Shown: positions 2,259 to 46,395 of the stretch, piece by piece
Layout: each line of letters starts with the position of its first letter
Numbering within the stretch: the first letter of the stretch is position 1
Source: Pseudobythopirellula maris
GTDB taxonomy: Bacteria > Planctomycetota > Planctomycetia > Pirellulales > Lacipirellulaceae
Direction: 5' to 3'
DNA: 64,000 nt
Assembly (NCBI RefSeq): GCF_007859945.1
Contig: NZ_SJPQ01000001.1
Span: forward strand, 1,948,489-2,012,488
Position numbers and translations under genes: made by a program
Notes under the pieces: model-generated
Told to the model about the DNA's origin: nothing
The model's input: the letters and a program-made list of their open reading frames with translations, nothing else
Databases searched by the model: none

Positions 2259-4421
2259 GTGAATCCCTCTCCCATGCTCTTGTTACGATTTTCTATTCTC
2301 GCTGCCACGGCCATCGCTCTCACGGCGACCGCGGCTCCCGTGCCGGCCGTCGACGGCTCCACCGACCAACGCCTCGCGCCGCCAATCCACCTCCGCCGCC
2401 ATTACTTCCGGTTCGACCCGCCCGCCACGGCCGAGGCGTGGCGCGAGCGTGCGGGCGAAGTCCGCCGCCGCGTGCAGGTCGCCGCCGGCTTGTGGCCCGC
2501 TCCGCCGCGGCGGGAGCCGAACGCCGTGGCCCACGGCCTCGTCGTCCGCGACGGCTACACCGTTGAGAAGGTCTACCTCGAGAGCTTCCCGGGGCACTTT
2601 GTCACCGGCAGCCTCTACCGCCCCAAGGGGTTTGCCGGCCCGCGGCCCGGCGTGCTGAGCCCTTACGGCCACTGGGGCGGCGGTCGCTACTTCGACCTCG
2701 GCGAAGCGGGCGTGAAGGACCAGATCGAGCGCGGCGCCGAGGAGGACCCCGTCGGCGGCCGCTACCCGATCCAGGCCCGCTGCGTGCAACTCGCCCGCAT
2801 GGGCTGCGTCGTGTTCAACTACGACATGGTCGGGTACGCCGACTCGCAGCAGCTCACGCACCGCCAGATCCACGCCGCTACCGAGGAGTCGATCGCCGCC
2901 GCGATCGGCGAGGGCGGCTGGGGGTTCTACAGCACCCAGGCCGAGTCGCGCTTGCAGGGACCGCTCGGCTTGCAGACGTTCAACTCGCGGTGCGCGCTCG
3001 ATTGGCTCGCCGGTTTGCCCGAGGTCGATTCCGAGCGGCTCGCGATCACCGGCGGCAGCAGCGGCGGCACGCAAACGCTGATGGCGAGCGCCGTCGACCA
3101 GCGGCTCGACGTGGCGTTCCCGGTGGTGATGGTCTCCACGGCGATGCAGGGGGGCTGCGGCTGCGAGAACGCCTGCTGCCTGCGTGTGGGGACCGGCAAC
3201 GCCGAGATCGCCGCGCTGTTCGCCCCCAAGCCGTTGGGCATGGCGTCGGCCAACGACTGGACGGTCGAGACGATCTCGCGCGGCTACCCGGAGATCCGCC
3301 ACGTTTATGACCTGCTCGGCGCCAGCGCGAACACGCGGCTCCGCTCGGCGACCGAGTTCCGCCACAACTACAACCTCAGCAGCCGCCGGGCGATGTACGC
3401 CTGGATGAACGAGCACCTCGACTTGGGCGCCGAGCGACCGACCGAAGAGCGCCCCTACCGTCCGCTCAGCGACAGCGAGCTTTGCGTGTGGGACGACCAG
3501 CACCCGGCGCCGCCGTCGGGGGTCGAGCACGAGCGGGCGTTGCTCAAGGCATGGGCCGCGATCACTGATCGCCAGCTGGACGCTTTAGCGCCGACTGACG
3601 AAGCGAGCCTGGTTGAGTACCGCCGCGTGGTGGGGGGCGCGCTGGAAACGATCCTCGCCGTCGGCGATCTCACCGCCGCCGACCTGAGGATCACGGAGAC
3701 CGACCAAGAAGATCGCGCCCCCCCTAACGTGCGCCACCTCACCGTCCTGCGTCGGTCGACCGGCGCCGCGCTCGAGGCCGTGCTGGTTGAGCCTCAAGAC
3801 TCTTGCCGCAGCGTGGTTCTTTGGGCCCACGAACGTGGCGTCGCAGGCCTTTATCAAGACAATGGCGAGTTCGTCCCCGAGGTCCGCGGCTTGCTCGACC
3901 GCGGGGTGGCGATCCTCGCCGCCGACCTGCTGGGTCAGGGAGCGGTCGAGGAGCAACGCGCTTTGCAATTCAACGACGACAAGCCGCTCGCGTCGATGAC
4001 GTTCGGCTACAACCGCCCGCTGCTGGCCCACCGGGCGGCCGATCTGCTCACGCTCGCCGTGGCCGCCCGCCGGCTGGCGCCCGAGGCCGATCGCATCGAA
4101 CTGACCGCCACAGCGGGGGCGGCGCCCTACGCCGCGGCCGCCTGGGCCGTGGCGGGCGACCGGCTGAGCGCCTTAAATATCGACACCGGAGGCTTCCGAT
4201 TCGCGGGCCTCGGGTCTTGGCGTCATGCCCAATTCCTTCCCGGTGCGGTAAAGTATGGCGACCTGCCCGCGATGCTCGCCCTGGGCGCCCCGCGGCCGTT
4301 GCGTGTCATCGGCGAGGGGGGCGAAGGGCTCCCGCTCGTCGGCCGGGCGTACGAGGCAGCCGGCGCCGCCGATCGACTGAGCGTGGCCGCCGACGGCCCG
4401 CTCATCGACGAGCGAGACTGA
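2259..4421 (+). CDS. exported alpha/beta hydrolase family protein (acetyl-xylan-esterase-like)
   Basis: The 720-residue product starts with a signal peptide (about residues 1-30). The first half is an alpha/beta hydrolase of the esterase/peptidase type: a [13 protein letters not shown] segment near residue 130 and a nucleophile elbow GGSSGGTQ near residue 264, with Ser as probable nucleophile. The second half repeats the fold more loosely (AADLLGQG near residue 556) without an obvious G-x-S-x-G elbow, so it may be a degenerate second domain. It sits beside sugar isomerase and rhamnosidase genes, so deacylation of polysaccharide side groups is plausible but inferred. A peptidase function cannot be excluded. 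Confidence 0.75.
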
Positions 4422-43206: not shown

Positions 43207-43518
43207 CTAGGCGGTGATCTTGCCGATCTTCACCTTCGTGAACATCTTGCGGTGGCCGGTCTTGCGGCGGCTGTTCTTGCGGCGGCGGAGCTTCTGGACG
43301 ACGATCTTCGGGCCCTGGGTGGTGCCGATGACCTCGGCCGCCACACTGGCGCCGTCGACGAGCGGGGCGCCGAACTTCAGGTCGCCGCCGGCGCCAACGG
43401 CCAGCACGCTGCCGAGTTCGAGCTTGTCGCCCGGCTTGGCTTCGCGGTAATCGAGGGCGAGTTCCTGGCCCTCTTCGACTTTGTACTGGCGTCCGCCGTC
43501 TTTGATGATCGCGTACAC
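43207..43518 (-). CDS. rplU: 50S ribosomal protein L21
   Basis: The 103-residue protein is full length for L21. It begins MYAIIKDGGRQYKVEEGQ (GTG start, AGGAAAA upstream) and ends with the RNA-binding KLRRRKNSRRKTGHR segment and KVKIGKI. It binds 23S rRNA in the large subunit. In most bacteria rpmA (L27) and obg follow; here a terminator and a convergent gene follow, so rplU is alone. Confidence 0.96.
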   Translation of the reverse strand: MYAIIKDGGRQYKVEEGQELALDYREAKPGDKLELGSVLAVGAGGDLKFGAPLVDGASVAAEVIGTTQGPKIVVQKLRRRKNSRRKTGHRKMFTKVKIGKITA

Positions 43519-44052
43519 GGTCTTGTTTTCCTGCTACGTACTTGGGGGCCAGCTTCGGCCTAAGTGCCCCGGCCGGCGGTGCTTATGAGCACGCTGCGGG
43601 CACGGCGGGCGTGGGTGTCTGGTCGGAAGCCCCGCAGTTTACCGCCCCGCGGCCCGTGAGTCGAGGGGCGCCGGAAAGTGGCTAAAAACAGCCGAAAAAC
43701 CCCCCCTCGCCGCTGGGCCTGCAGAAAAGCTTCGCCGCCAAACCAAAGGACTTACGACGATCCGGCCCCCGCCGGCCTGCGGGAAACCAGGGTATTCCCT
43801 CCCAACCGGCCGCCAGACCGCAAAAACGCCCCCCTGCGGCGCCCAATTATCTTTGTAACGAGCGATTCACCTTAATTTCGACAATCGCTTTTGGGCCGCG
43901 CGCAGCAGCGATTCTTGGCCACTGGCGATTTTGTTCCAAGTCGTTGCCATCAGGTCGATTAGCGGAGCGCAGCGGGGTCCGTCGTAAGCGGATAAGTCAC
44001 GTAAAAGTATTCTTGGGCCATCATTTGAGGAGGACTCACAGCCGCTCCCCAT
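43519..44052. other. gene-free region upstream of rplU and RAYT
   Basis: It should hold the rplU promoter on the minus strand. A 94-codon minus-strand frame (43867-44151) overlaps the palindromic repeat and is not supported as a gene. Confidence 0.4.
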
Positions 44053-44155
44053 GGGGTGGCGGGGGCGCACCGCAGAGCGGAAGCCCCCCGTGATTTGGAG
44101 ACCCGGTTCGGCTGGCTCGGGGGCTTCCCTGGCGGGTGCGCCCCCCGCCACCCCC
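44053..44155. repeat. REP-like palindrome, copy 1 (upstream of the RAYT)
   Basis: Outer arms GGGGTGGCGGGGGCGCACC and GGGTGCGCCCCCCGCCACCCC face each other, with inner GGAAGCCCCC and GGGGGCTTCC. It ends 57 bases before the transposase ATG. It carries a few extra bases compared with copies 2-4. Confidence 0.85.
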
Positions 44156-44212
44156 GATTAGCTGCTACCGTCAAAACGTGATCGGCTTGTGCAGCGTGTT
44201 TACGATAACGAC

Positions 44213-44767
44213 ATGCCTCGCAAGTCGATCAACACTCCGGGTCACGCACATGAGCTGACCTTCAGTTGCTACCACGGCTACGCTTTTCTACAGGCGAACC
44301 GGGTACGTCTCTGGTTCGCCGACTCGATCCGCAATGCTTGCGCTGAGTTGGACTACAGGCTGTGGGCCTATGTCTTCATGCCGAATCACGCTCATCTAAT
44401 CGTCCGGCCTGATGGACACGAGTATCGCGTCGACGAGTTTCTCAAGGCGGTTAAGCAGCCCGTGTCTCGCAAGGCGCTCGCCTATCTCACCGAGAATAAC
44501 CCCGCCTGGGTTGCCCGACTGTCCGGAAAGAGAGGAAGCCGCTCGGAACGCCACTTCTGGCAACGCGGCGGCGGCTACGATCGGAATGTGGTGGAGCCAT
44601 CAACACTGGAAAGTATGATCGAGTACATACACCTCAATCCGGTCCGGAAGGGCCTGGTCGAGAGAGCTGCCGACTGGGAGTGGTCCAGCGCGGGTTGGTT
44701 TGAGGGTGGCGCCCTGAATAGCTTGCCTCCTGACCCAATCCCACCGGAATGGATAACCAACGGCTGA
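44213..44767 (+). CDS. REP-associated tyrosine transposase (RAYT, Y1/TnpA family)
   Basis: The 184-residue protein has the HUH nuclease pair His59-Ala-His61 (FMPNHAHLIV), a candidate catalytic Tyr122 (QRGGGYDRNV), and the family segments YIHLNPVRKGLV and WEWSSAGW near the C-terminus. RAYTs cut single-stranded hairpin DNA of REP/BIME sequences and are usually single-copy domesticated genes. It is flanked on both sides by the palindromes listed here, which are its likely substrates. The ORF appears intact. ATG 44213 precedes the N-terminal HAH motif; the frame extends upstream to 44189. Confidence 0.9.
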   Translation: MPRKSINTPGHAHELTFSCYHGYAFLQANRVRLWFADSIRNACAELDYRLWAYVFMPNHAHLIVRPDGHEYRVDEFLKAVKQPVSRKALAYLTENNPAWVARLSGKRGSRSERHFWQRGGGYDRNVVEPSTLESMIEYIHLNPVRKGLVERAADWEWSSAGWFEGGALNSLPPDPIPPEWITNG

Positions 44768-44801
44768 TAACAACCTTTCGGAATGGCTAGCGTATCAATG
44801 A

Positions 44802-45197
44802 GGGGTGGCGGGGGCGCACCGCGAAGCGGAATCCCCCGTGATGTGGAGACTCGGTTTGGCTAGCTCGGGGGCTTCCCTGACGGGTGCGCCCCCGCCACCC
44901 CATCGTTCTTCATGGCTCAAAAAACGAAAAAGCCTCAGCTGCTTCCCATGGGGTGGCGGGGGCGCACCGCGAAGCGGAATCCCCCGTGATGTGGAGACTC
45001 GGTTTGGCTAGCCCGGGGGCTTCCCTGGCGGGTGCGCCCCCGCCACCCCATCGTTCTTCATGGCTCAAAAAACGAAAAAGCCTCAGCTGCTTCCCATGGG
45101 GTGGCGGGGGCGCACCGCGGAGCGGAAGCCCCCGTGAAGCGGAGACTCGGTTTGGCTAGCTCGGGGGCTTCCCTGACGGGTGCGCCCCCGCCACCCC
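44802..45197. repeat. array of three REP-like palindromes with exact 148-bp period
   Basis: Copies lie at 44802-44901, 44950-45049 and 45098-45197, each 100 bp. They are joined by an almost invariant 48-bp spacer containing CATGGCTCAAAAAACGAAAA. Each copy is an imperfect palindrome with a 19-bp outer stem and a 10-bp inner stem around a loop with GAGACTCGGTTTGGCTAG. Sequence differences among copies are few, so the array is recent. Confidence 0.92.
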
Positions 45198-45222
45198 CTT
45201 GGTTGTTCGGTTTGATATCAAC

Positions 45223-46395
45223 TCACGGCTTGAGCACCACCTTGATGCAGCCGTCCTTGCGTTGCTCGAAGGTCTTGTACATCTCGGGGGCCTCTTCGAG
45301 CGTGGCGTGGTGGGTGATCACGAACGAGGGGTCGAAGCCGTCGTCGACGATCTTGTTCATCAGCGGCTCGAGGTAATGCTGCATGTGCGTCTGCCCGCCG
45401 CGGAGCGTGAGCGCCTTGTTCATCAGGCTGTGCATCGGCATGTCGTTGAGCGTGTTCGTGTAGACGCCGGGCACCGACACGGTTCCCCCCTTGCGGCAGC
45501 ACTTGATCGCCTCGCTCAGCGCGTAGGGGTGGTTGGCCGGCAGGTGGACCGCTTCGCGGGCGTCGTCGAGCGCTTCCTTCAGGTCGCCGGCGGCGTGCGA
45601 CTCGGCGCCGACCGCCTCGATGCAGCGATCGGGGCCGCGGCCGTCGGTCCGTTGCATCAGCTCCTCGTACACGTCCTGCTCTTCGAAGTTGATCGTCTCG
45701 GCGCGGCCATGCTTCTCGGCCAGGGCGAGCCGCTCCGGCACGCGGTCGATCGCGATCACGCGGCCTGCGCCCAGCATCCACGCGCTCTGGATGGCGAATT
45801 GGGCGACCGGGCCACAGCCCCACACCGCGACGGTGTCGCCCGCTTCGATGTCGCAATTCTCGGCCGCCATGTAGCCGGTGGGGAAGATGTCTGACAGGAA
45901 AACGACTTGGTCGTCCTTCAGGCCGGCGGGGACCTTGATCGGACCGACGTCGGCGTACGGCACGCGCAGGTACTCGGCCTGCCCACCGGGAAAACCGCCC
46001 AGCAGGTGGGAGTAGCCGAACAGGCCGGCCGGGGAGTGCCCCATCATCTCGGCCGCCTTCTCCGCGTTGGGGTTCGACTCGTCGCAGAGCGAGAAGAGCT
46101 GACGGTCGCAGAAGAAGCAGGAGCCGCACGAGATCGTGAACGGAACGACCACCCGATCGCCCTTGGCGAATTTGGTGATCGCGGCGCCCACCTCGACGAC
46201 TTCGCCCATCGGCTCGTGGCCGATAATGTCGCCCGCCTGCATGCCCCCCATGTAGCCGTTGTAGAGGTGCAGGTCGCTGCCACAGATGCCTGTGGACGTG
46301 ATCTTGACGATGATGTCGCGGGGGTCTTGGATCTGAGGGTCCTCAACCGTGTCGACCCGAACATCGTGTCGGCCGTGCCAGCAGAGCGCGCGCAT
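45223..46395 (-). CDS. zinc-dependent alcohol dehydrogenase (formaldehyde dehydrogenase-like)
   Basis: The 390-residue medium-chain dehydrogenase has [12 protein letters not shown] (catalytic Cys), IGHEPMGEV, the structural zinc CxxC cluster ([15 protein letters not shown] near residues 95-109) and the NAD motif VWGCGPVAQ. It is of the glutathione-independent formaldehyde dehydrogenase type, longer than ordinary alcohol dehydrogenases. It may detoxify aldehydes. It follows the REP array convergently. Confidence 0.88.

Follow-up and report, generated by a model that had tools for sequence, protein, structure and literature searches.

The closest described systems to the locus analysed here are the REPINs of Pseudomonas fluorescens SBW25 and the REPtron of Escherichia coli. 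In SBW25, REPINs are made of two inverted REPs and a spacer, are linked to a RAYT (REP-associated tyrosine transposase), lie in extragenic DNA and also form ordered tandem clusters in which the REPIN is repeated together with its flanks; segments of 71 and 110 bp were used in a simulation in that study (Bertels and Rainey 2011, PMC3116915). The E. coli REPtron pairs the HUH/Y1 enzyme TnpAREP (structure 4er8) with long REPs that have a foot and an irregular zone in the stem, and the y/z BIMEs combine unlike REPs in inverted order (PMC8266576). Members of the GTAG-tagged REP super-family, which includes planctomycetes, with R. baltica named, also occur as dimers in inverted order and as clusters in which flanking DNA is repeated along with the element (Di Nocera 2013, PMC3733652). 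Among the enzymes, TnpAY1 subclass 2.4, or Bertels group 4, comprises proteins of near 190 aa with a WQ motif that go with long REPs of a "double foot" geometry, and the association of one RAYT with one REP family is a published pattern (Quentin 2018, PMC6006769). The experiments on RAYTs and REPs in the literature compared here concern gamma-proteobacterial systems.

These traits recur in the planctomycete Pseudobythopirellula maris, at a locus within a window of 64,000 nucleotides, the whole stretch of DNA that was analysed. We read this locus, with a probability of roughly 90%, as a REPtron, that is, one gene for a RAYT (an HUH/Y1 nuclease) with its cognate REPINs. Planctomycete REPs (those of R. 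baltica), GTGG feet, REPINs, clusters and pairs of unlike REPs are already in print, and the family is a known REPIN-RAYT kind in an ordinary setting, with a few family-specific features worth testing. The feet here are GTGG, as at the start of the commonest 16-mer of one SBW25 group (PMC3116915) and in the GTGG-ended repeats of most O. terrae GTAG-20 elements (PMC3733652), whereas the E. coli foot is GTAG (PMC8266576); stem, arm and loop also differ from those of E. coli, and the two enzymes share 13% identity in a structural alignment. SBW25 has 430 REP doublets, compared with about 30 full copies here, and the REPs of one SBW25 group pair with compensatory changes that keep a long hairpin (PMC3116915), whereas here foot and lower stem are shared and the arm differs. 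Subclass 2.4 carries NH[IFV]H and YIxNNP motifs in about 194 aa (PMC6006769); the window protein has NHAH, WQ and YIHLNP, with the YIHNNP form of the tyrosine motif in 14 of 80 relatives, and, with motifs that agree only in part, it may or may not belong to this subclass.

The original prediction placed an intact RAYT between one upstream and three downstream copies of a 100-bp palindrome, and this arrangement holds. The frame is open and matches a RAYT family model, four palindromes of 100-102 nt border it, and the whole sits between an L21 ribosomal gene and an alcohol dehydrogenase gene (Table 1); a GTG at 44189 offers an alternative start. The downstream units begin 148 and 148 nt apart, exactly the period that had been described, and the 48-bp spacers, described as almost invariant, are identical over their 48 nt. 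The three units are 94-98% identical to one another.

Table 1. Features of the RAYT locus, in window coordinates.
Feature	Position	Strand	Details or basis
L21 ribosomal gene	43207-43518	minus	
Repeat B	43830..44030	+	separate family just upstream of the first REPIN, no part of the REPIN
Upstream REPIN, 102 nt	44053..44154	+	two extra C; repeat analysis, fold, 27-copy alignment
RAYT (TnpAREP-like) gene, 184 aa	44213..44767	+	ATG at 44213, stop ends at 44767
REPIN array unit 1, 100 nt	44802..44901	+	repeat analysis, fold, 27-copy alignment
Array spacer 1	44902..44949	.	identical to spacer 2 over 48 nt; sequence comparison
REPIN array unit 2, 100 nt	44950..45049	+	repeat analysis, fold, 27-copy alignment
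Array spacer 2	45050..45097	.	sequence comparison
REPIN array unit 3, 100 nt	45098..45197	+	repeat analysis, fold, 27-copy alignment
Example REP with 4-bp arm	45098..45134	+	foot GTGG, lower stem CGGGGGC/GCCCCCG, arm CCGC-GGA-GCGG
Partner REP with 3-bp arm	45162..45197	-	foot GTGG, lower stem CGGGGGC/GCCCCCG, arm CCC-GTCA-GGG
Alcohol dehydrogenase gene	45223-46395	minus	

Each 100-bp palindrome is composed of two REPs, each ~36 nt long and inverted relative to the other, that are joined by a linker of roughly 27 nt, as seen in the 27-copy alignment and in folds of four copies. The palindrome is a REPIN, or BIME unit, in which inverted REPs and linker jointly form a hairpin. The parts of a REP are a GTGG foot, a lower stem, an irregular zone and a small arm with its loop, and a typical half-palindrome in the alignment reads GGGTGGC-GGGGGC-GCN-arm-AA-GCCCCCG. 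Folded alone as DNA, a half-palindrome gives a hairpin; the GGGTGG before it is single-stranded, with GTGG touching the stem. The definition of a REP as a hairpin of 20-50 nt directly after a GT[AG]G foot thus covers GTGG with CGGGGGC...GCCCCCG. The suggestion that these hairpins are much larger than known REPs has to be given up, since a palindrome consists of a pair of inverted REPs, neither of which is larger than usual, and "unusually large" regular hairpins adjoining a RAYT can be simply paired REPs. Nor is the regularity of the array a departure from known REPs and BIMEs, as PMC3116915 and PMC3733652 both report arrays in which a unit recurs together with DNA from its flanks. Of the two stems predicted, the outer arms are present, at least 19 bp long and perfect in the three downstream copies, but the "10-bp inner stem" proved to be part of a finer anatomy, two REP hairpins with different small arms.

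The fold itself is strong. As single-stranded DNA the four copies reach z-scores of -5.5, -6.7, -5.7 and -8.5, and none of their shuffled versions (200 per copy) folds as well as the real copy. The full palindrome is the more stable fold, at -40 to -48 kcal/mol versus about -21 to -26 kcal/mol for its two halves folded apart. Covariation is weak because the stems hardly vary: one pair in the own-genome alignment changed on both sides, a result reached by 152 of 500 shuffles.

The unit is spread through the genome of P. maris (G000 below) and is not confined to the locus, where its absence elsewhere would have counted against a REP family. A search of the full genome with one 100-bp unit returned 54 rows, because a palindrome can match on both strands, and these resolve into 27 full REPIN copies, with 3 half copies besides. 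Weaker places were fetched separately, after which all 27 full copies were aligned; a covariance model was built from 26 of them, L026 being dropped for an insert in its linker, and five weak matches of this model in the same genome (E 0.0002-0.007) were left out. Exact-pattern REPs number 38, a low copy number for a REP family. In 40 stretches of G000 and G002, 44 of 48 REP or REPIN places fall outside the ORFs that a crude caller based on codon usage predicts, at a coding fraction of 0.76. When the orientation of unlike REPINs relative to replication was gauged from local GC skew at the 33 places with an absolute skew >0.005, those in minus orientation lay in 12 C-rich and 10 G-rich surroundings and those in plus orientation in 8 G-rich and 3 C-rich ones.

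As the spacers are identical, the 148-bp array would have arisen when one REPIN, along with 48 nt of its flank, was duplicated locally in tandem. Another array of three REPINs lies at C2:1103903-1104298 (L031), with a different spacer of near 80 nt and a period near 180 bp; in this stretch (G000:C2:1103500-1105000) the third unit ends after the linker. Local tandem duplication probably explains both arrays, made either by the RAYT or by ordinary recombination. At L034 (G000:C2:1208000-1214000), three REPINs with similar flanks occur within about 2.2 kb, in a region that, by the crude ORF calls, is free of genes over >2 kb.

We found the exact REP core 38 times in G000, 52 times in G002, 29 in G015, 4 in G010, 2 in G018 and once in G005. 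It is absent from the other 37 of the 43 family genomes, a reversed-pattern control gave no match in any of the 43, and among 396 genomes of the order the core occurs only in the same six. A RAYT search of the 43 family genomes put G000 (100% identity), G002 (62%) and G015 (59%) at the top. Copy number follows the RAYT, as had been proposed: the core is abundant (29-52) in exactly the three of 43 genomes with the closest RAYTs and numbers 0-4 in the other 40, and equal abundance in relatives lacking the RAYT is not seen for the REP core among these 43. The coincidence of the three richest genomes with the three best RAYT genomes has a chance of 1 in 12341 if genomes are independent, which they are not, G002 and G015 sharing a genus; the correlation rests on few independent lineages. 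Copies occur throughout the genome, and among the 43 genomes the REP core is abundant only in the 3 whose RAYTs are nearest; the enzyme very probably has these palindromes as its substrates.

In G002 and G015, likewise, REPINs lie on both sides of the RAYT. The foot there is GTGC, and both ends of the palindrome have changed together, from GGTGGC/GCCACC to GGTGCC/GGCACC. One G002 REPIN copy is absent beside the orthologous gene in G015, but the next gene differs there and the absence therefore proves nothing; the analysis brought to light no excision, no insertion and no clean empty site.

When run on the family genomes, the palindrome's covariance model picks up a sister family, GGGTGGCTGGGG..., as well, with 35 rows in G006, 41 in G019 and a few in G004, G011 and G034 (some of these matches were inspected). 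The sister repeats share the GGGTGG start, and the G006 and G019 copies at L070, L071, L081 and L091 are this sequence or close to it. Neither genome has a match to the window RAYT at E 1e-15, the best being one of E 2.5e-4 in G006 and a 56-residue stretch at 48% identity in G019, whose assembly is 72% complete. The sister repeat is absent from the six RAYT-match stretches inspected (three of the five RAYT-family matches of G006, two of the four of G019 and one further G019 fragment), four of which hold a RAYT-like frame of another type. Abundant sister repeats in genomes where no intact clade RAYT was found imply that related repeats may outlive or lack a RAYT, and this family speaks against a strict rule that the repeat needs one.

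Within a REPIN, the small arms of the two halves usually differ, one reading CCGC...GCGG and the other CCC...GGG. A REP with a 3-bp arm is paired with one with a 4-bp arm in 38 of 40 REPINs, counted in three genomes as opposite-orientation REPs that both match the core pattern and start <110 nt apart; judged by eye, 3 of the 27 own-genome copies (L016, L021, L030) have 4-bp arms on both sides. Arms that differ in this way (3 versus 4 bp) cannot pair with each other, and hence conservation seems to act on individual REP hairpins more than on the hairpin formed by the whole palindrome, with each strand apparently labelled by its own arm. All three half REPINs (L032, L033 and L031) keep the half with the 4-bp arm and are without the 3-bp-arm half, a number too small to build on.

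The loops on these arms are of a DNA type. A clean 3-bp or 4-bp arm is present in 121 of 126 exact REPs, the other five being left out of the arm statistics, and 115 of the 121 close on a three- or four-base G...A loop. The GNRA rule of RNA fits only 9 of 85 G-N-N-A tetraloops, the inner bases of which vary. Seated on two or more G-C pairs, GNA and GNNA loops make hyperstable DNA mini-hairpins, the type example being GCGAAGC (PMC4686876), and this very mini-hairpin is present among the REPs here. Such loops point to selection acting on DNA in its single-stranded state, although common ancestry of the copies may contribute. We also considered the G..A rule as a law of the whole clade and rejected it, as elsewhere in the RAYT clade it covers only 7 of 50 loops of three or four bases, versus 35 of 568 in control hairpins; few such loops in the wider clade means that the rule belongs to this REP family.

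The same loops weigh on the idea that the palindromes are structured RNAs or transcription terminators whose place beside a RAYT is incidental. Very stable hairpins would suit such a role, as would the genes that flank the 44 intergenic places, which point the same way at 32, converge at 9 and only rarely, at 3, diverge. Within 43500-45300, however, nothing scores as high as the gathering threshold of an Rfam family, and the weak matches, mostly to miRNA families, stay far below it; the tetraloops are seldom GNRA and are of the kind known from DNA; and the abundance of the repeat follows the RAYT lineage. We therefore consider this explanation improbable. REPs can be transcribed too, and a secondary RNA effect of the REPINs may exist beside their relation to the RAYT.

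The enzyme carries the expected motifs, H59-A-H61 (HUH), W116-Q117, D123-R124 and a putative catalytic Tyr138; H59, H61, W116 and Y138 are invariant in 14 aligned RAYTs. Its score for NCBIfam NF047646 (REP-associated tyrosine transposase), 84.4 bits, is just above the cut-off of 80. An AlphaFold2 model (pLDDT 91.6) has as its best PDB match 4er8, E. coli TnpAREP with a REP hairpin (E 9.9e-8, TM 0.68/0.75), to which a 47-row profile also matches (E 4.4e-10). Tyr138 aligns with residue 115 of that structure, and Y115F is a catalytic mutant of the E. coli enzyme (PMC8266576). Two further RAYTs of the same genome, L028 and L029, score above the family cut-off and have a GTAG-foot hairpin nearby (GTAGGGTGCGAT... 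and GTAGGATGGGTGC...), and there are two weaker family matches. L029 also holds, at 2717-3413, a 57-bp repeat array in an open frame with SSGDVHLAA-type protein repeats.

A gene lying between hairpins might also be an active IS200/IS605-like insertion sequence and not a resident RAYT. The layout recalls IS ends, as among the relatives the gene sits between inverted REPs in 25 of 72 loci with enough flank (upstream + and downstream - feet within 300 nt). The window RAYT, however, is single-copy, the runners-up in its genome reach only 35 and 26% identity and are accompanied by other hairpins, its neighbours are the L21 and alcohol dehydrogenase genes, and TnpAREP is the best structural match, ahead of the ISDra2 and IS608 transposases, which makes an active insertion sequence a distinctly improbable reading. 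Least credible of all, the palindromes might be MITEs of an unrelated transposon with the RAYT a bystander, as their size near 100 bp and terminal inverted repeats could suggest, but inspection of the 27-copy alignment shows varying bases just outside the palindrome with no constant direct repeat apparent, each half has the foot and hairpin of a REP, RAYT relatives in other genomes have this foot beside them with other hairpins, and repeat abundance tracks the RAYT lineage.

For the preferred reading, a REPtron, E. coli and other TnpAREP systems suggest how it might work. Where the DNA is single-stranded, for example at a replication fork, each strand would present one REP hairpin, its 5' GTGG foot left free. 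Hairpin and foot would be bound by the RAYT, and Tyr138 would cut at a dinucleotide chosen by the foot; joining of the cut strand elsewhere could then spread the REPINs.

The relatives of the RAYT were collected by scanning species genomes with an eight-sequence alignment, and the best 80 of 259 were kept; by their titles, all but four of these 80 are planctomycetes. Clade RAYTs at L176 and L196 stand in records titled Zixibacteriota and Myxococcales, outside the planctomycetes. With all tetranucleotides counted, the one that most often directly precedes a 7-bp stem within 400 nt of the gene is GTGG, at 29 of 80 loci compared with 5 of 80 in the far flanks, which are larger regions; the same count for GTAG gives 3 near the RAYT and 6 far from it. 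A looser stem with a GTGG or GTGC foot occurs at least once within 500 nt in 49 of 80 loci, some of the stems looking like chance. From locus to locus the hairpins differ (CTGGGG..., CCGGGG..., CACGCCC..., CACGGAC..., CATGCCC...) and the foot stays. By eye, unlike hairpins are also paired in L150, L157, L158, L161, L165 and L172, and like or nearly like ones in L138 and L160. The same REP core lies beside RAYTs in other planctomycete MAGs (L174:2426 and L149:2028), and the L174 arm, CTGC-GAA-GCAG, is a paired change of the arm stem.

Across this clade, the foot may be read in part by the residue after the conserved Trp. Four RAYTs (L035, L036, L178, L181) have Leu there, and GTGC is the commonest foot at all four, with one GTGG foot also present at L178. 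RAYTs with Gln go with GTGG in 40 loci, GTGC in 8 and other feet in 4. A REP-like foot was found in 61 of 93 loci, and leaving out nine (four with no readable motif, one with Lys, four with other feet) gives 52, for which the exact probability of the Gln/Leu versus GTGG/GTGC table is 0.0018, a value that ignores descent. A quick tree of the 93 proteins places the Leu rows in two separate positions (support 94 and 82), with Gln relatives near each. GTGC without Leu is common, Gln being present in 8 of the 12 GTGC loci that have either residue, so that Leu is at most sufficient. In E. coli TnpAREP, Q95 is among the residues that contact the foot, and changes in the foot shift the cleavage dinucleotide (PMC8266576); from our reading of the motif, Q117 would correspond to Q95. 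Two events are few, and we regard the association of Leu with GTGC as a lead.

A two-part code could join these observations, although we hold it only tentatively and think it rather doubtful. Its first part would be the residue after Trp, helping to read the fourth base of the foot, with Gln mainly for GTGG and two apparently independent changes to Leu for GTGC. The second would be the near-obligate pairing of unlike REPs, whose 3- and 4-bp arms, capped by G-N(N)-A loops, would label the strands, with the RAYT acting on each REP singly. In this planctomycete clade the enzyme is easy to align and the foot, stem and arm next to it vary, which supplies natural variants for testing RAYT-REP recognition. 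These variants bear on how a RAYT recognizes its own REPs, and on whether the single REP or the whole REPIN is the unit of selection.

As to what is new, no title or abstract on this REPIN family came up in the literature on REPIN or RAYT with planctomycetes, on RAYT groups, or on TnpAREP with GTAG. The stem family of these REPs does not appear in the excerpted text on the GTAG super-family (PMC3733652), and a term search of the available RepRanger text (PMC12306157) finds neither planctomycetes nor RAYT. The 38/40 pairing of unlike arms, the 115/121 G-N(N)-A loops and the Leu in two places of the tree with GTGC are likewise not found in the excerpts of the literature compared.

A separate repeat accompanies some of the REPINs. 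Repeat B is about 200 bp long and occurs in at least 40 places in the P. maris genome, including the one in Table 1; its 114-nt core has at least 21 other matches there at 87-94% identity, and none was found in 38 relatives. One copy lies upstream of the RAYT at L028. A repeat B match starts within 400 nt of 7 of 23 REPIN places, versus 0.15 expected, and at L020, L024 and L011 the REPIN starts at the same GCAT/GGG junction.
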